A DNA stretch of 64,000 bases from Prosthecobacter dejongeii (lineage in GTDB: Bacteria; Verrucomicrobiota; Verrucomicrobiia; Verrucomicrobiales; Verrucomicrobiaceae), in contig NZ_JACHIF010000006.1 of NCBI RefSeq assembly GCF_014203045.1, positions 124,001-188,000 of the forward strand, written 5' to 3'. The notes under the pieces are model-generated. The model ran no database searches. It was given only the letters and a program-made list of their open reading frames with translations, and was not told the DNA's origin. The position numbers and the translations under genes were made by a program. This document shows, piece after piece, positions 21,997 through 29,975 of this stretch (position 1 is its first letter; each line of letters starts with the position of its first letter).

Positions 21997-23568
21997 CTAT
22001 TCCAGACGGGACAGGCTGCCGATGCGGAACATGCCATTCATGAGCTGGAGGTTATCCTTCTCCACCTTGGTGGCATCGAGGTACAGGATGAAAGGGAACT
22101 GGTCCAGCTTCACCACATGCAGGCCATCCTTGGGCTTTTTAAAGGCCTCGGCCACGTCTTCGATCTGGGAGATTTTCACGCCATTGATCTCATCCACCAC
22201 TTGGCCGCTGAGGCGCTCGTAACCCTGGGTGCTGGTGGTGGGCAGGACGGCGCTGAGGAAGACCACGCGCCTGCGGCCTTTCTTCTCATACTCTTCTGGA
22301 TTGCTGGCGATGCGGGCCAGGCGCAGGATTGGGCCGCCCTGCTGCTCGGTGCCGAAGGAGTTCAGGTAGGGGCGGGTGAGCTCCTGGAAAAGCATACCGC
22401 CATTGATGAGGTACTTCGGCCCTTGATCAAACTGGTAGGGCAGCACGAGGTAGTCGGTGGGTTGCTTGCGGGCCAGCTTACCCGTGAGCGTCACTTCTTT
22501 GCCATCGCGCAGGACTTTCATCTCCACTTCATCACCCACGAAGGCTTTGCCCCGGACGATGTGGCTGACGCTGAGAGGGCCGAAAAGAGGGTCCTGATAG
22601 TCACCACGGGAGTCAATGGTGAAGCCATTGATGGAGAGCATGATGTCGCCTTTTTTCACCCCGGCCTTGTCAGCGGAGGCACCTTTGGTCACGCTGCTGA
22701 TGTAAACACCAGGTTGGTCCGCCTTCATGCCCAAGTAGTCGCGGAACTGCTCATCCAGGGTGATTTGAAACTCGATGCCCAGGGAGGGGAAGCCATCGTA
22801 CTTGCCATCGGCCACGTCTTTGAGGAAGTGCTCGATGATGGGCGCGGGCAGCAGGGTGGCGAGCTGATTTTTTGAATCGTAACGCAGCAGCAGAGCGGCG
22901 AGTTTGCGACCCTTCGCCACCGGCAGCGTGAAGCTATTGGCCTCACTGCGGATGATGCCCTGCGCTTCATAAACGATGAAGCTGGCATTCTCCACCACGT
23001 AGCCCTGATTCATGACCTTACTGATGCGCATGGGGGTGACGATGAGCTCGCCCACGCGGCCGGTTTGCCAAACCACCAGGGTGTCACCGATACGGGCGGT
23101 GGTATCCACTTCCATGGGGCTGAGCCCGGCAAAGAAGGCCTCCTCACGGGCGGGGGAATTGGGAGCCAGCAGGGCGAGGTTGGCCTCGTAATCCACGGCG
23201 ATGACGCGGGCGGGGATCTTCTGGCCGCTCTCGGGCAGCTCCAGCTCGATGTAGGTGGCATCGCTGACCATCTGGCCAGTGACGAGGATGCGGTTTCCCT
23301 CCAGCACCACACCCAGGCCGCGACGGCCCCCAGCGCTCTCTTTCTGCCAGGGGATGCGGAGATTGTAGCTCTGGTAGGTGACGTTCACCTTCAGCAGGGA
23401 GCTGGTCTGGATGCCTGCCTGCTGCTGTGGCTGCGGCGGCTGGGTGGGGGCATTTGGATTGATGAGCACCCGACGCGGGCCGATGGGCGGCTTGGGCGTG
23501 GTGGGGGCGACCTGGGCCTGCACGCTGGCGGCGGTCAGCAGGGTGAAAAGAAAGGAAAGGGACTTCAT
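21997..23568 (-). CDS. Catalytically dead Deg/HtrA-like PDZ protein
   Basis: This 523-residue exported protein (signal peptide 1-18) is a paralogue of its upstream neighbour. The trypsin-like domain (about 60-255) has lost the catalytic residues. Aligned to the neighbour, the His is Gln99 (LVTGQMVSDAT), the Asp is Asn130 (YEANLALL), and GNSGGP is replaced by ANSFTL, keeping only Ser212. A PDZ domain follows (about 275-365; QPGVYISSVTKGASADKAGVKKGD). A second, divergent PDZ-like region ends the protein and contains DEINGVKI. It may act as a chaperone, adaptor or regulator of the active protease. ATG 23568 is used. Confidence 0.8.
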   Translation of the reverse strand: MKSLSFLFTLLTAASVQAQVAPTTPKPPIGPRRVLINPNAPTQPPQPQQQAGIQTSSLLKVNVTYQSYNLRIPWQKESAGGRRGLGVVLEGNRILVTGQMVSDATYIELELPESGQKIPARVIAVDYEANLALLAPNSPAREEAFFAGLSPMEVDTTARIGDTLVVWQTGRVGELIVTPMRISKVMNQGYVVENASFIVYEAQGIIRSEANSFTLPVAKGRKLAALLLRYDSKNQLATLLPAPIIEHFLKDVADGKYDGFPSLGIEFQITLDEQFRDYLGMKADQPGVYISSVTKGASADKAGVKKGDIMLSINGFTIDSRGDYQDPLFGPLSVSHIVRGKAFVGDEVEMKVLRDGKEVTLTGKLARKQPTDYLVLPYQFDQGPKYLINGGMLFQELTRPYLNSFGTEQQGGPILRLARIASNPEEYEKKGRRRVVFLSAVLPTTSTQGYERLSGQVVDEINGVKISQIEDVAEAFKKPKDGLHVVKLDQFPFILYLDATKVEKDNLQLMNGMFRIGSLSRLE

Positions 23569-23619
23569 GAGCACGAAAGGAAAAAAGGTGGCAGGGACAG
23601 TCTCGGAAAAAGGGCGGGG

Positions 23620-25149
23620 TTATTCGCCCAGGTAGGCGTCTTCCGGGATGTTATAGGTCTGCATGATTTTAGGGTGGGCGGCATCGGCGAGGTCGCGCTT
23701 CAGCACCAGGGGGCGGCCTTTTTCCAGCAGCTTGATGACGATGAAGTCTGCCTTTTCACCTTTCTTCTCCAGGGCCGTTTTCACGTCCTTGAGGCTGCGG
23801 ATTTTCACCCCGTTGATCTCATCCACCACGCTCTGCGCGTAGGGGGTGATGTAGGTATTCACTTCATCGGCCAGGATGCTCGTCAGCAGCACGGGCTCCG
23901 GCCGTTCCACGTAGAGTTTTTCCGTCAGGTAATTGTCAAACAAGTAGTTAGCCGCCGAGTCGGCGATCTGGTGGGCATCCATGAGGTTCTTGTCCATGGG
24001 CTGGAAGACCAGACCAGCATAGACGAGGTAACGCGGGCGCTGATTGTACTGCTCTCCCAGCTTAACGTAGGGGTCAAAGCGCTTCAGCACCACCTCGGTC
24101 TCCGTCTTTTTGCCATCGCGCATGTAGGCCAGCTTCAGCTTGTCCCCGGCGAACTTGCGCTCCACCACTTCGTTCATGTCCATCAGCTCACCTTCAAAGC
24201 GGATGAGGCCATTGTTCATGATGGGGTTGTCATCCATGGAGAGGAGCACATCTCCGCGCTTCAGCAGATTTCCCGCGCTGCCAGCAGGCTCCACATCGGC
24301 GATCATCACGCCCACACCACCGCCATTCAGCCCCATGGCCTTTTTCTGGGCGCTGTTTTCGATGGGGAAATCGCTGACGGCGAGGTCCACGTAGTGGTCA
24401 TACTTGCCATCGTCCACATCCTTTAAAAAGCGCTGCACCACTGGCACGGGGATGATGTAGCCGACATTCTGCGCCACGCGGCCATTGAAGCCCTGGAAGG
24501 CCACGCCCACGACCTTGCCATCCTGGATGACGGGGCCGCCTGAGTTGCCGGGGTTGATCGCCGCATCCACCTGAATGGCGAGGTGGGAATCCACCTGCGT
24601 GTGGCTGAAGGGGCGGAAGTCAATGCGTGAGACCACGCCGCGAGTGACGGAGATGCGATCTCCACCGATGGGGTAACCGACGGCGATGACCTCGGTATTC
24701 AGCTTGGGGATGCCGCCAAAGGTGAGGGGCTTCAGCTTCTCAAAGTGAGAGCCGTCTTCGGCCTCCAGGATGGCGAGGTCACAATCATGCGCCACATGCA
24801 CCACGCGGGCCGGATGGGGCTCGGGGTCATTGGTGGTGCGGATCACCAGCTTGGTGGCATTGCTGATGACGTGGGCATTGGTGAGGAAGCGGTTTTTACC
24901 GATGAGGAAACCTGTGCCCGACCCGCCGGAGGGCTGGCCGGCATTCCAGGGCTCGCGGTAGTCAGGGAGCAGAACGGAAGCGTCGATGTTGACGATGCCT
25001 TCCCATTCATCAATCAGCGGAGCCTCAGGAGCAGGAGGAGAGGCGGCAGGGACGGAGTCCGGCACGGTATCCGGCGCAGCTTGCTGGGCAGGGGAGAGAA
25101 CGGAAAACGCCAAGGCTGCGACGGCGGGGTAAAGGGGACGCATTTTCAT
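23620..25149 (-). CDS. Deg/HtrA-type serine protease with PDZ domains
   Basis: This 509-residue exported protease has the chymotrypsin-like triad His93 (LTNAHVIS), Asp124 (HDCDLAIL) and Ser203 (INPGNSGGP). A PDZ domain with VGVMIADVEPAGSAGNLLKRGD follows near 290-320. The C-terminal region ends with a second PDZ-like segment (DEINGVKIRSLKDV). It would degrade or refold misfolded envelope proteins. The overall plan resembles plant-type Deg proteases more than E. coli DegP. I use ATG 25149; ATG 25143 is possible. The dead paralogue follows after 51 bases, so the two are probably co-expressed. Confidence 0.9.
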   Translation of the reverse strand: MKMRPLYPAVAALAFSVLSPAQQAAPDTVPDSVPAASPPAPEAPLIDEWEGIVNIDASVLLPDYREPWNAGQPSGGSGTGFLIGKNRFLTNAHVISNATKLVIRTTNDPEPHPARVVHVAHDCDLAILEAEDGSHFEKLKPLTFGGIPKLNTEVIAVGYPIGGDRISVTRGVVSRIDFRPFSHTQVDSHLAIQVDAAINPGNSGGPVIQDGKVVGVAFQGFNGRVAQNVGYIIPVPVVQRFLKDVDDGKYDHYVDLAVSDFPIENSAQKKAMGLNGGGVGVMIADVEPAGSAGNLLKRGDVLLSMDDNPIMNNGLIRFEGELMDMNEVVERKFAGDKLKLAYMRDGKKTETEVVLKRFDPYVKLGEQYNQRPRYLVYAGLVFQPMDKNLMDAHQIADSAANYLFDNYLTEKLYVERPEPVLLTSILADEVNTYITPYAQSVVDEINGVKIRSLKDVKTALEKKGEKADFIVIKLLEKGRPLVLKRDLADAAHPKIMQTYNIPEDAYLGE

Positions 25150-25294
25150 GAAAAAGGACAATCTGTGCCAAACATACGTAGGGCGGTGCATCAAAGACAA
25201 GTGCTTCTGCCGACCTGCTCAAACAATACGCAACGAAGTTCGCGGACTCTTGTTGCTCCGTTTGAAAGATTCGGCAGGATCAGGCCGCAAATCC

Positions 25295-25627: not shown

Positions 25628-25654
25628 TTGACAGCGCCTAACCATTCGGTTAAT
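25628..25654 (+). promoter_or_regulatory. Candidate sigma70-type promoter of the leader transcript
   Basis: A perfect TTGACA lies at 25628-25633. The best -10 candidate is GTTAAT at 25649-25654, 15 bases on; TAATCA at 25651 is an alternative with a 17-base spacer. Transcription would start near 25661, just before the leader ORF. Confidence 0.45.
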
Positions 25655-25669
25655 CACGGGCCTCGTTTG

Positions 25670-25777
25670 ATGAACTCTCTCCGTCATCCATGCATTGCCG
25701 CCGTCGCTGGTTCCCCAGCGAAACGTGGCGTCATGGTGTGGGCCGTTAACGCGGCCTGGCCACGCCAGGTGGGTTGA
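25670..25777 (+). CDS. Candidate 35-residue leader peptide
   Basis: ATG 25670 opens a 35-codon frame ending at TGA 25775. The product starts MNSLRHPC and ends AAWPRQVG; it has two Trp, in VMVWAVN and AAWPRQ. Its stop overlaps the antiterminator strand GGTGGGTT (25768-25775). The coding stretch also contains two stable hairpins (25695-25710 and 25714-25764). No Shine-Dalgarno is evident. If translated, a ribosome finishing the ORF would cover the antiterminator and favour termination, while a stalled one would allow readthrough. It is inferred from position only. Confidence 0.45.
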   Translation: MNSLRHPCIAAVAGSPAKRGVMVWAVNAAWPRQVG

Positions 25778-25846
25778 GATCTTCGTTTATCTAAATTTCC
25801 AAACGTATCTCCCAAACCCACCCCGGACACAGGCGGTGGGTTTTTT
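25695..25846 (+). promoter_or_regulatory. Transcription attenuator (or riboswitch-like leader) upstream of the exporter gene
   Basis: The strand AACCCACC at 25815-25822 can pair with either of two identical partners. Upstream GGTGGGTT (25768-25775) gives an antiterminator, extended by GAGAT/ATCTC (25776-25780 with 25807-25811) and CGTTT/AAACG (25784-25788 with 25801-25805). Downstream GGTGGGTT (25835-25842), followed by T6, gives an intrinsic terminator. The 5' part folds as CGCTGG-TTCC-CCAGCG and as CGTGGC/GCCACG enclosing GGCCG/CGGCC. I recognise no known riboswitch class. Confidence 0.7.
25815..25846 (+). terminator. Regulated terminator of the attenuator
   Basis: The stem AAACCCACC/GGTGGGTTT (12-base loop) is followed by a run of T, 34 bases before the exporter ATG. 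No complete gene ends just upstream, which supports attenuation rather than simple gene-end termination. Confidence 0.75.
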
Positions 25847-25879
25847 CTTGCCGCTGCGTGATTCCCAAAATCACTTTTC

Positions 25880-26839
25880 ATGAGCAGCCCTAGCATCCTG
25901 GTCGAATCTTCCACCTCGCTCCCCAGCGTGGCCGGTCCCTTACGCCCTCCCTTCAGTCTCGTCATCGCAGCCTTTGCGGCGGTGTATCTGATCTGGGGGT
26001 CCACATATCTGGGCATTCGTCTGGCCATTGATTCCATCCCACCCCTGCTGATGGCGGGCAGCCGTTTTGTCACCGCTGGCGGTGTTTTGTATCTGGTCAT
26101 GCGAATGCGCGGTGCACCGCGTCCCGACTGGGACCACTGGCGCGGTTCCATCATCATCGGTGGCCTGCTGCTGATGGCGGGAAATGGCGGTGTGTGCTGG
26201 ACCCAGCAGACGGTTCCGTCTGGTGTGGCGGCGCTCATCGTGGCCTCCGTGCCGCTGTGGATCATGCTGGTGGATTGGCTGCGCCCGCAGGGCCTGCGGC
26301 CCACGCGCCGGGTGGTGGCGGGCCTCTTCATTGGCATGACGGGCGTTGCCGTGATCATCTTGGGTCGTGGGGCCTTGGGCCAGCGAGTGGTGGAGCCCGT
26401 GGCGGCTCTGGTGCTCGTGGGAGCAAACATCTGCTGGGCTCTCGGCTCCATCTATGCCCGCCATGCACGAAAGCCCAGCTCTGCCCTGCTAGGTGTGGCC
26501 ATGCAGATGTTGTGTGGGGGTGGATTGCAATTGTTGTTAGGCCTGATTTTGGGTGAAGCGCAGGATTTAAATCTGGCTGCCATCACTCCCACCTCGGCCT
26601 GGGCTTTTGTTTATCTCACCTTCATCGGCTCCCTCGTTGGCTTCACCGCCTACATCTGGCTGCTGCAGGTCAGCACCCCAGCACGGGTCTCCACCCATGC
26701 TTATGTGAACCCTCTCGTGGCCGTGCTGCTCGGCAGTTGGTTCCTGCATGAGCCCATCTCTCAGAACGTCATCATCGCAGGCGCTCTGGTGCTTTTTTCC
26801 GTGCTTCTCATCACCCGTTCCTCTCCCTCTCCCAAGTGA
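25880..26839 (+). CDS. EamA/DMT-family exporter (YedA-like)
   Basis: This 319-residue inner-membrane protein has two EamA halves and about ten helices. The first helix carries YLIWGSTYLGIR, and the second half ends in STHAYVNPLVAVLLGSWFLHE. The layout and motifs are those of YedA-like drug/metabolite exporters (compare PPLLMAGSRF and NGGVCWTQQTVPSGVAALI). The substrate is unknown; DMT relatives export amino acids, drugs or other metabolites. It lies behind the attenuator, and its stop overlaps the methyltransferase GTG by 4 bases. Confidence 0.88.
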   Translation: MSSPSILVESSTSLPSVAGPLRPPFSLVIAAFAAVYLIWGSTYLGIRLAIDSIPPLLMAGSRFVTAGGVLYLVMRMRGAPRPDWDHWRGSIIIGGLLLMAGNGGVCWTQQTVPSGVAALIVASVPLWIMLVDWLRPQGLRPTRRVVAGLFIGMTGVAVIILGRGALGQRVVEPVAALVLVGANICWALGSIYARHARKPSSALLGVAMQMLCGGGLQLLLGLILGEAQDLNLAAITPTSAWAFVYLTFIGSLVGFTAYIWLLQVSTPARVSTHAYVNPLVAVLLGSWFLHEPISQNVIIAGALVLFSVLLITRSSPSPK

Positions 26840-27603
26840 ACACCCTTTCTGTTAGCGACTTCTATCTCCCTCCCGCCTCGGCTTCTGCGGCGGACTTGCC
26901 TGCACGGCGCAGTGCGGGCACACACGCGTCTTTTGCCCTGCCTCTGATGCGGCCGGGGATGCGCTTGCTGGACTGTGGCTGTGGCCATGGTTCCATTACC
27001 CTCGGCCTCGCGGAACGCGTGCGGCCTGGGGGCATCATCGGCATTGATGTCCAGGGTGACTCGTTGGCACAGGCCAATGAAAAAGCGGCAGAACGCGGCC
27101 TAAACGCCGCCTTCTTGCAGGCCAATCTGTATGAACTGTCCTTCGGTGCGGCCGAGTTCGACGGGGTGTTCTCGCATGCCTTGTTCGAGCATCTGGCGCA
27201 TCCGCTGGTGGCTCTGCGTGAGCTCCGGCGGGTGATGAAGCCGGGGGCGTTCATTGCCCTGCGCAGCCTGGACTGGGGTGGTTTTGTCCTGGAGCCCTGG
27301 GATGAAACCGTGGCCGCTGCGCTGGAGACCTGCAAACAGATGCAGGCCCAGAAGGGCGGCGACATCCACGCCGGGCGGAAGCTGCCTGCCTGGTTGCGGG
27401 CTGCGGGCTTTCATCATGTCACCCCCTCTGCCAGTTATGAGATCCATCCTTCGACCACTTTGATCGCCGGAGATTTGGCTCAACAACTGGAGCAAGGGGG
27501 ACACACGGAGGCCGCCCAAAACATGTGCCAATGGGCCACCCAACGCGGTGCCCTCGTCGCTCAATCCTGGTTTGAAGCCGTCGGCTGGAAACCCTGGATG
27601 TGA
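26836..27603 (+). CDS. Class I SAM-dependent methyltransferase
   Basis: This 255-residue cytoplasmic enzyme has SAM motif I in RLLDCGCGHGSITLGLAE (about 43-60), motif II in GIIGIDVQGDSLAQA and a post-motif LFEHLAHPLVALRELRRVMKPG. It resembles UbiE/BioC-type small-molecule methyltransferases. The GTG start overlaps the exporter stop (GTGA), so translation is coupled and the two probably act on related chemistry. The substrate is unknown. No Shine-Dalgarno is visible, as expected for a coupled gene. Confidence 0.85.
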   Translation: MNTLSVSDFYLPPASASAADLPARRSAGTHASFALPLMRPGMRLLDCGCGHGSITLGLAERVRPGGIIGIDVQGDSLAQANEKAAERGLNAAFLQANLYELSFGAAEFDGVFSHALFEHLAHPLVALRELRRVMKPGAFIALRSLDWGGFVLEPWDETVAAALETCKQMQAQKGGDIHAGRKLPAWLRAAGFHHVTPSASYEIHPSTTLIAGDLAQQLEQGGHTEAAQNMCQWATQRGALVAQSWFEAVGWKPWM

Positions 27604-27773: not shown

Positions 27774-28955
27774 TCACCTGCCCGCCGGGGCGAGGTGATT
27801 CGCCTCAGCATGCACCCGCAGTTCCTCCACGGCCTCTAGGATCAGTTCGCGGTCCATTTCGTGGACTTCGAGTTTTTGACCCACTTTGGGCACGAGGGTG
27901 ACGGTGAGTTCGCCGCCGAGGTGCTCGCGGAACTCTTCGAGGCCTTCGAGGATGGTGGGCTCGCCAGTCCTGCCTTCGGCAAGGAGGCTGGGGTGGTAGA
28001 TTTCAAAGCCGATCTGTTCCACCAGGCGCATGACACGCTGCGCGGTGGGGGCATCGAGAATGCCTTTCTTCACCGAGTAAAGGAGGTCCACCGCCATGCC
28101 GATGGCCACGGCTTCGCCATGGGTGACGGCAAAGTGAGTGATCTGCTCCAGCTTATGCGCGGCCCAGTGACCGAAGTCGAGCGGGCGGGCGCTGCCGAGT
28201 TCAAAGGGGTCGCCCCCGGTGGCGATGTGCTCCACATGCAGCTCGGCACTGCGCTGGACCACCCGCTCAAGTGCAGGCTGCTCCAGACGGGCGAGGGCCG
28301 GAGCCATCTGCTCGATCTCTTCAAAAAAGGCGCGGTCGCGGATGAGGGAAACTTTGATGGCCTCAATGATGCCATTGCGGCGCTCGCGTTCGGGCAGGGA
28401 CTCCAGAAAGGCAAAGTCATTCACCACGGCAAAAGGAACGGCGAAGCTGCCCACCCAGTTCTTTTTCTCGAAGTAATTGACGCCATTTTTCACGCCCACG
28501 CCGCCATCGCCCTGGCTGAGGGTGGTGGTGGGGAAGCGCACGTGGCGGATGCCCCGGTGGGCGGTGGCTGCCGCAAAACAAACGAGGTCCAGCGTGGCCC
28601 CACCGCCGATGACAAAGACGTAACTGTGGCGGTCCAGCCCGGCATCGTTGATGGCCTGCCAGCACTGCTGGACGAGGGAAAAGTCATTCTTGCAGGGTTC
28701 ACCACCGGGCAGGATCACGGGCTCGCCCGCTAGGTCCAGCACCTCGGCATGGGCCCGTGCATACGAGCGGATGTTGTCGAGAAGTTGCGGGTTGGCTGAG
28801 GCCACATGATCATCCACAAACACCAGCACACGAGGGACCTTGTTGGGGTGGTCCAGCAGGAGGAGATCGCAGATGGTCGTGTTTGCAGCAGCAAACACAT
28901 CGCGGGTGAAAAGGATGCGATGGGCGTATTCGAGCCTGATTTTCTTCTCCAGCAT
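27774..28955 (-). CDS. eboD: EboD-type sugar-phosphate cyclase (3-dehydroquinate synthase-like)
   Basis: This 393-residue NAD-dependent cyclase of the dehydroquinate synthase superfamily has the nucleotide-binding block VFVIGGGATLDLVCFAAAT. It matches EboD proteins closely: GGVGVKNGVNYFEKKNWVG, FAVPFAVVNDFAFLESLP, GSARPLDFGHWAAHKLEQ with metal-binding His, HGEAVAIGMAVDLLYS, GLEEFREHLGGELTVTL and VEVHEMD-like KLEVHEMD. EboD belongs to the ebo operon found in algae, cyanobacteria and other bacteria, where it has been linked to moving metabolite precursors across the inner membrane. The eboC-like gene lies 105 bases upstream. A true aroB function is less likely. Confidence 0.82.
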   Translation of the reverse strand: MLEKKIRLEYAHRILFTRDVFAAANTTICDLLLLDHPNKVPRVLVFVDDHVASANPQLLDNIRSYARAHAEVLDLAGEPVILPGGEPCKNDFSLVQQCWQAINDAGLDRHSYVFVIGGGATLDLVCFAAATAHRGIRHVRFPTTTLSQGDGGVGVKNGVNYFEKKNWVGSFAVPFAVVNDFAFLESLPERERRNGIIEAIKVSLIRDRAFFEEIEQMAPALARLEQPALERVVQRSAELHVEHIATGGDPFELGSARPLDFGHWAAHKLEQITHFAVTHGEAVAIGMAVDLLYSVKKGILDAPTAQRVMRLVEQIGFEIYHPSLLAEGRTGEPTILEGLEEFREHLGGELTVTLVPKVGQKLEVHEMDRELILEAVEELRVHAEANHLAPAGR

Positions 28956-29060
28956 GGGCGGTTGGGTCTCATTAATCCTTACGCCAAAGGTGACGAAAGG
29001 GAAAGACTAGAACGAGCTTTGCCGCCGTTTCATGCAGTCAGGAGACGTGGAAATGCATGC

Positions 29061-29975
29061 TTAAGTGGCCGCAATCCACCGCTGCCAGAGGCGCAGCAGT
29101 GGGGCCATTAGGACAAAGCCACAGGCTAGAGATAGGGAAACCTGCATGACGGCCAGCGCATCCACCACGGCGATGCCTGCCAGCAGGATGCCCACCGCCC
29201 GGCCAATCGCGGGCCCGCCCTGGTGCATGACCCGTGTGGCGTAGGCCACCATGCCGATGAAAAGCAGGATGAAGGGCAGGGGAGCGAGCGGCGTGAGATC
29301 CCCCAAAAGAGAAATGAGCCGCCAGTTTGCCCGGCTGAGCCAGAAGACCGTGGCGACCAGCGCCGGTGCATACAGCAGACCTTTGGCAAAAAAAGCGCGC
29401 AGGCGGGAGGTGAGCGCCCCTTTAGCCTCCATGCGGGCGACCATGGTGAGGCCGACGATGTAGGCACCTAAAGTGAGGGCAAAAATCAGCCCGTCACCAT
29501 TCATCCACCCATGAATGCTGGCCCCGCTGCCGGGCAGGGCCGAGCTGGCCATGAGATAAAGCAGCACCCGGCACGAGCCCATCACCCACACGGCCCCTGG
29601 CCAGGGTTTATGATAGAGATCATAAAACAGAATGGCGGAGACGAGGGCGACGGTGATGCCCACGCTAGCCCCGGCAGTGCAGATGGCGAGCGTTGCTCCC
29701 AGTGCCATCATCCCCAGCCCCACGCCCCAGGCAGTGCCGGCGCTGATTTTGCCACTTGGGATGGGGCGTTCCTTTTTGTGCTCGCGATCGAATTTGGCAT
29801 CCGCCGCATCATTCAGGATCATGCCGCCTGTATAAAGAAGGGAGCCCGCCAGCAGCAGCCAGCCCAGCTTTGCATCCATCCACGGGCCACCTGCCAGTAG
29901 CCAGGCGGCGGTGACGTTGGTCCAGACAGTGGGGAGATTGGAGATGCGGGCGAGTTCGAGCCAGGCGCGGAGCAT
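29061..29975 (-). CDS. eboC: EboC-type UbiA-family membrane prenyltransferase
   Basis: This 304-residue protein has about eight or nine membrane helices. It carries the UbiA-superfamily Asp-rich motif NDAADAKFDREHKKERPIP near residue 55-75, including the DxxxD that binds magnesium and prenyl diphosphate. The second motif YDLYHK is near 120. The N terminus ARISNLPTVWTNVTAAWLL is that of EboC-like proteins. It lies directly upstream of eboD. A membrane prenyl transfer step is likely, but the acceptor is unknown. Confidence 0.8.
   Translation of the reverse strand: MLRAWLELARISNLPTVWTNVTAAWLLAGGPWMDAKLGWLLLAGSLLYTGGMILNDAADAKFDREHKKERPIPSGKISAGTAWGVGLGMMALGATLAICTAGASVGITVALVSAILFYDLYHKPWPGAVWVMGSCRVLLYLMASSALPGSGASIHGWMNGDGLIFALTLGAYIVGLTMVARMEAKGALTSRLRAFFAKGLLYAPALVATVFWLSRANWRLISLLGDLTPLAPLPFILLFIGMVAYATRVMHQGGPAIGRAVGILLAGIAVVDALAVMQVSLSLACGFVLMAPLLRLWQRWIAAT

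Follow-up and report, generated by a model that had tools for sequence, protein, structure and literature searches.

The window analysed here, a 64,000-nucleotide stretch of a Prosthecobacter dejongeii contig, carries on its plus strand a gene for an EamA (DMT) transporter preceded by a compact leader in which a predicted promoter, an upstream open reading frame (uORF) and two competing RNA pairings follow one another (Table 1). Scored against its nearest NCBIfam model, the transporter reaches 250.6 bits, below the curated cut-off of 270, and is therefore YedA-like without being filed as YedA; a single-sequence search found no PDB relative at E 0.001. The methyltransferase gene whose start overlaps the EamA stop is probably co-transcribed with it, and a methyltransferase-like ORF lies directly after EamA in all seven loci of the genus, with ATGA or GTGA at each EamA stop. 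Farther downstream, on the minus strand (27774-29975), a 3-dehydroquinate-synthase-like gene stands beside one that by eye resembles a UbiA prenyltransferase gene, and the two converge on the EamA-methyltransferase pair; this is possibly an ebo-type cluster. On the other side of the leader, again on the minus strand, lies a trypsin-like PDZ protease gene (23620-25200) whose neighbour (21997-23574) is similar by eye, the two being apparent relatives.

Table 1. Features of the leader and of the genes that follow it (window coordinates).
Feature	Position	Strand	Details
Predicted promoter	25628-25656	+	TTGACA 25628-25633, 17 nt spacer, weak -10 TAATCA 25651-25656; putative start site
Leader-peptide uORF	25670-25777	+	ATG 25670, 35 codons (MNSLRHPCIAAVAGSPAKRGVMVWAVNAAWPRQVG) and UGA 25775-25777; near-leaderless
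Trp codon 24 of uORF	25739-25741	+	27 nt 5' of the antiterminator strand (strand placed from the fold)
Trp codon 30 of uORF	25757-25759	+	9 nt from the antiterminator strand; column is Trp in 38/38 aligned uORFs, aligner-favoured
Antiterminator 5' strand	25768-25788	+	GGTGGGTT 25768-25775, GAGAT 25776-25780, CGTTT 25784-25788; leader z -2.4 (fold)
Antiterminator 3' strand	25801-25822	+	AAACG 25801-25805, ATCTC 25807-25811, AACCCACC 25815-25822
Intrinsic terminator (predicted)	25814-25846	+	stem AAACCCACC / GGTGGGTTT; T run 25841-25846; -16.8 kcal/mol
EamA (DMT) transporter gene	25880-26839	+	Pfam PF00892; nearest NCBIfam model YedA NF008432
Class I SAM-dependent methyltransferase gene	26836-27603	+	start codon overlaps EamA stop (GTGA)

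At the centre of the leader is a single segment with two possible partners: AACCCACC, the last part of the antiterminator 3' strand, doubles as the terminator 5' arm, and can pair either with GGTGGGTT upstream or with a second copy of GGTGGGTT at 25835-25842. The upstream pairing is extended by two further helices, GAGAT with ATCTC and CGTTT with AAACG. A first-pass annotation, made by reading the sequence, had proposed these pairings; they are present as described, and the structure is more stable than chance predicts. From 25655 to 25826, that is, as far as the terminator 5' arm, the leader folds at -69.6 kcal/mol (z -4.75; 0/200 dinucleotide shuffles as stable), and with the terminator included (25655-25852) it retains a z of -3.12, again with 0/200 shuffles equally good. 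The six T said to follow the stem are there, although two of them are the final bases of GGTGGGTT, which puts four beyond the stem itself. A simple terminator scan, limited to shorter loops, did not return this hairpin; between 22000 and 30000 it returned 15 others where 6.7 were expected, so that a hairpin plus T run would by itself carry little weight here. What counts is the three-strand arrangement together with its conservation, not the single hairpin.

The first-pass annotation had overlooked the uORF, whose stop codon (25775-25777) falls inside the antiterminator 5' strand. Because the uORF begins 42 nt past the first TTGACA base, its start codon would lie within a few bases of where transcription is predicted to begin. 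The promoter itself, with a -10 too weak for recognition, was missed by a consensus promoter scan. Searching 48 genomes of the genus with the leader by blastn recovered homologues in G033, G064, G034, G059, G056 and, in pieces, G018, besides G000, and the only copies above noise were linked to EamA. Short matches in L028 and L029 were rejected as copies, being coding sequence of other genes, and a match in G068 (E 6.8e-4) was set aside since by eye it precedes another gene. EamA was found at E 0.001 in four of 35 genus genomes searched (G000, G018, G033 and G034), each of which has the leader; among the other 31, which have no EamA at that threshold, the best leader match reached only E 0.02. 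The uORF is in frame in all seven genus leaders, always ending in Val-Gly and a stop codon, and its alignment gaps span exactly one codon or four. Its pooled pN/pS is 0.54, compared with 1.19 and 1.09 in the shifted frames of the same alignment: within the genus, the uORF is under purifying selection in its own frame only.

The arrangement extends beyond the genus. We inspected the upstream regions of 80 EamA loci, kept of 152 from genome contigs, and then those of EamA loci in the kin of two further Verrucomicrobiota. The 194 relatives of G452 hold 40 EamA loci, including those where the pattern was first noticed, and a terminator of this kind was found by rule in 33 of the 40; G537 and G509 have one by eye only, the T run or the hairpin being poorer, and five loci have none, one of them containing a masked stretch and another just 221 nt of upstream sequence. 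In the Chthoniobacter flavus group (30 loci inspected among 63 EamA-bearing relatives) three loci carry such a terminator (G447, G655 and G446) and 27 do not, three of the latter with less than 200 nt upstream. The first 28 loci fetched show it only in two from the window's genus (L119 and L120), the remaining 26 belonging mostly to one family, and the EamA homologues of other phyla in the contig set show none by an earlier rule that also missed L041. On these counts the unit is patchy yet present in three groups of the phylum. Before any further counting we dropped L181 (a copy of L179), L040 and L041 (the same loci as L204 and L202), and L085, L201, L214, L217, L228, L230 and L231, whose terminators were by eye not of the CCC[AG]CC kind, leaving 43 leaders, among which the near-identical L002, L120, L195 and L197 were retained.

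Across these leaders one design recurs: a promoter, a uORF of 31-53 codons, an antiterminator and terminator, and a YedA-like EamA gene. To count uORFs we required a start codon lying 34-46 nt past a TTGAC-like box, a length of 15 codons or more, and a stop between 75 nt before and 15 nt after the terminator start, a rule written after the first leaders had been seen, which we count against our preferred explanation. It finds a uORF in 38/43 leaders, compared with a mean of 2.3 and a maximum of 8 when the 260 nt upstream were shuffled (40 rounds). By eye, four of the five leaders that escape the rule (L047, L178, L190, L193 and L200) also have a Trp-containing uORF, none being seen in L178. 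In 38/43 leaders TTGAC occurs in the 260 nt that precede the terminator, and in the 38 found by the rule it stands 36-45 nt before the uORF start, within rule limits of 34-46. As a control, eight genomes gave 25 matches to the terminator pattern, of which six belong to EamA genes and have the correct orientation; five of those six have a uORF by the rule, as against one of the other 19.

The competing strands are conserved along with the uORF. When the terminator 3' arm is omitted, the minimum-free-energy folds of 36/43 leaders join six or more bases of the 5' arm to upstream sequence, in most of the 36 to the uORF tail, and the folds have a median z of -2.36 (z < -1.64 in 28/43). The mutually exclusive terminator and antiterminator proposed before this EamA gene are thus supported and kept beyond the genus; seven of the 43 leaders show no antiterminator at this six-base threshold, a point against our explanation. 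A duplex-energy test of strand pairing was weaker than folding (p<0.05 in 17/43). Strand identity changes in step: of leaders with a CCCACC terminator arm, nine have only GGTGG-like and two only GGCGG-like motifs in the uORF tail, and with a CCCGCC arm nine have only GGCGG-like and two only GGTGG-like (9:2 vs 2:9, Fisher p 0.0045, relatedness ignored); the remaining 15 of the 37 carried the two motifs together or lacked both. With less strict motifs the counts were 4:3 vs 1:11 (p 0.038, relatedness likewise ignored). These tables cover 37 leaders, with L002, L195 and L197 removed along with three that have neither CCCACC nor CCCGCC arms. G558, with GGCGATGG, CCCATCGCC and GGCGATGGG, has all three strands altered together. 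We relied on per-leader folds and the motif table, as a MAFFT alignment of the region after the uORF misplaced the second helix, and we excluded from the covariation evidence partner letters that are complementary by construction. A search for conserved structure with compensatory change in verrucomicrobial EamA leaders, the check that had been suggested for this locus, was therefore positive on both the folds (36/43) and the motif table.

What the uORFs share in content is tryptophan. Every one of the 38 contains it, against 21.6 expected from shuffled uORFs, and they hold 65 Trp residues in 1437 where 31.1 are expected; when aligned, all 38 share one Trp column, of a sort that the aligner favours. 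Folding located the antiterminator strand in 34 of 37 uORF leaders, where it overlaps the uORF stop or lies close to it, and an in-frame TGG stands at least 12 nt upstream of it (12-51 nt) in 33/34, compared with 16/34 and 15/34 in the other two frames. With the codon at this distance, a ribosome stalled at Trp would leave the antiterminator strand free. The exception is G018, whose sole Trp is 5 nt from the strand, too close for this and a point against our reading; within the genus it is also the one leader of seven without Trp in the codon 24 column. Counting against it too, 14/38 uORFs have a single Trp, and in the others the residues are mostly 5-13 codons apart. Consecutive Trp codons, expected of a trp-operon attenuator, are seen in only 3/38, the near-identical L194, L195 and L197. 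The marks of ribosome-mediated attenuation in general are present here: a uORF with a coding signature between promoter and terminator, competing hairpins, and a geometry that would permit strand masking.

On balance, 25628-25846 is probably a ribosome-mediated transcription attenuator, with Trp codons the likely sensor. The anatomy, the conservation of the uORF, its Trp and the competing strands, and the tie to trpG are observed; that the uORF is translated, that transcription stops at the terminator or reads through it, and that charged tRNA-Trp gives the signal are inferred. The operation would be as follows. RNA polymerase would start a few bases before 25670, with a ribosome following on the near-leaderless 35-codon uORF. 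A ribosome that reached the UGA at 25775 would cover the antiterminator strand (25768-25788), leaving AACCCACC to pair with the downstream GGTGGGTT, and transcription would end at about 25846. A ribosome stalled at the conserved Trp codon or codons would instead leave that strand free to pair with 25801-25822; with the antiterminator formed, polymerase would continue into EamA and the methyltransferase gene or, in eight other genomes, into trpG.

That last link comes from the downstream genes. In eight loci of the G452 group a TrpG/PabA gene begins 11-93 nt after EamA, and in those eight genomes it is the only match above the TIGR00566 cut-off; the window, by contrast with these relatives, has no trpG/pabA after EamA. 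At G482 the contig ends within the trpG/pabA gene, and another, partial match narrowly misses the same cut-off. Together, the trpG operons and the universal Trp of the uORFs make Trp supply the likeliest signal. Against a Trp reading, TrpG/PabA also serves folate synthesis, and the neighbours of EamA are mostly not Trp genes. In seven loci, of which two are near copies, a codirectional gene for a PPK2 polyphosphate kinase comes after EamA (one PPK2 checked by HMM), and three have a MATE pump so placed, NorM-type by HMM in L047 and recognized by eye in L044 and L199. Eight leaders have, in the interval between attenuator and EamA, a gene for a small protein of about 60-67 amino acids (start by eye) whose common core is similar to IYRxxGLxxxAAxxAAxxD; the three of these proteins that were compared with Pfam have no match at E 1. 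Also counting against a Trp reading, under the same terminator and uORF rule trpE, meant as a positive control, has no such leader in any of 20 leader genomes, nor has trpG in G000 and G033. An earlier scan for ORFs with at least two Trp found some, a few with adjacent Trp, none of them followed by a T run.

The nearest competitor keeps the same attenuator and changes the signal: it would sense slow translation in general, for example under ribosome-targeting antibiotics, and induce a drug exporter, Trp being merely a convenient slow codon. The controlled gene is a putative exporter, the MATE pumps after EamA would suit such a role, and there is a precedent in Bacillus subtilis, where BmrB is reported to be a leader peptide whose translation is needed for induction, alternative stem-loops governing transcription into the BmrCD multidrug ABC transporter (PMC4191407). 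The likeness extends to a translated leader peptide with alternative stem-loops before a drug-type transporter; the differences are that the BmrB terminator lies inside the coding region and the pump is an ABC protein, while here the terminator follows the uORF, each of the 38 uORFs holds Trp and the gene is an EamA. A general sensor of this kind leaves both the presence of Trp in 38/38 uORFs and the trpG operons unaccounted for, and we judge it unlikely, if the most credible of the alternatives.

Codon sensing may also be only part of the mechanism. The uORFs are enriched in Ala, Val, Lys and Met and avoid acidic residues, and codon sensing alone is insufficient to explain this, leaving room for an effect of the nascent chain. 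In 29 leaders, the sequence 5' of the antiterminator strand is enriched in Lys (z 7.7), Ala (z 7.0) and Val (z 5.9) and depleted in Asp and Glu (z -3.6); these are leaders with a locatable strand, excluding L180, whose uORF runs into the terminator, and L173, L002, L120, L195 and L197. Ala is the residue before the aligned Trp in 17/33. Such a composition would be in keeping with a nascent chain whose part preceding Trp, rich in Lys or Arg, Ala and Val and poor in acids, stalls the ribosome, perhaps with a bound small molecule such as free Trp, as for TnaC, or a drug. TnaC is a Trp-responsive arrest peptide with a conserved Trp and Rho-dependent control; the leaders here share the conserved Trp and differ in having an intrinsic terminator and no fixed spacing from Trp to stop. 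That distance runs from 6 to 30 codons from the aligned Trp, and the uORF C-terminus is not conserved across clades, both of which speak against arrest of this type; we regard it as improbable.

The suggestion of the first-pass annotation that the leader is a riboswitch, perhaps of a new class, with 25768-25846 as the expression platform of a metabolite-binding RNA, was drawn from the two competing structures, which are real. The part upstream of them, where an aptamer would have to lie, instead shows a coding signature: with purifying selection in its own frame and gaps of whole codons, the sensor looks like a translating ribosome and not an aptamer. By eye we found no RNA element shared across clades beyond the three strands, and in an Rfam search of the leader no family, known riboswitches and leaders included, reached its gathering score, leaving the proposal unsupported and, in our estimation, very improbable. 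It is equally improbable that the hairpin simply ends transcription of the gene before it, or that an sRNA is encoded between the genes, with no control over EamA in either case; a weak RcsR1 match (25723-25846; 21.3 bits where the gathering score is 60, E 0.034) might be adduced for this. Against it, the T run ends 33 nt before the EamA start, the intervening sequence is empty in a promoter scan (which also misses the leader promoter), and the unit moves with EamA into loci with differing downstream genes. The terminated leader could additionally act in trans as an sRNA, as rnTrpL is reported to do (PMC7298713).

Attenuation by a leader peptide is a known kind of control, and in the literature searched we found this variant nowhere described; the search, whose coverage left most subscription journals outside, returned, judged by title, no verrucomicrobial leader-peptide attenuator or candidate riboswitch, and nothing on an attenuator of an EamA gene or on EamA with YedA as an exporter. 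The E. coli trpL leader is a trp-type ribosome-mediated attenuator, and the present leaders resemble it and trpL/peTrpL of Sinorhizobium meliloti in having a promoter-proximal Trp-containing uORF, a stop near the antiterminator strand and competing hairpins, and, in eight relatives, trpG downstream. They differ in that Trp residues are seldom consecutive and the peptide is longer (31-53 codons), basic and rich in Ala and Val; an EamA transporter is controlled, while trpE has no such leader; and no RNA family matches. The near-leaderless start of the window uORF has a counterpart in S. meliloti, where rnTrpL is reported to begin at the ATG of trpL (PMC7298713).

These observations suggest that Verrucomicrobiota use leader-peptide attenuation, and use it on a transporter, in some genomes on trpG too, while trpE goes without. 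Strains in which the switch can be tested include Chthoniobacter flavus Ellin428. EamA/DMT transporters are, to our knowledge, numerous, with few of known substrate; a conserved upstream sensor pointing to tryptophan makes the substrate question testable here, and is a hint at the role of a poorly understood transporter. We propose, tentatively and as something short of probable, that a Trp-codon alarm in three groups of Verrucomicrobiota places a YedA-like EamA transporter in a Trp regulon. Were this so, uncharged tRNA-Trp would open the terminator, the cargo would be Trp, one of its precursors, or a toxin that mimics it, for instance an inhibitor of TrpRS, and the alarm would have come to govern different further genes in different lineages: trpG, a MATE pump, a methyltransferase or an unnamed small protein.
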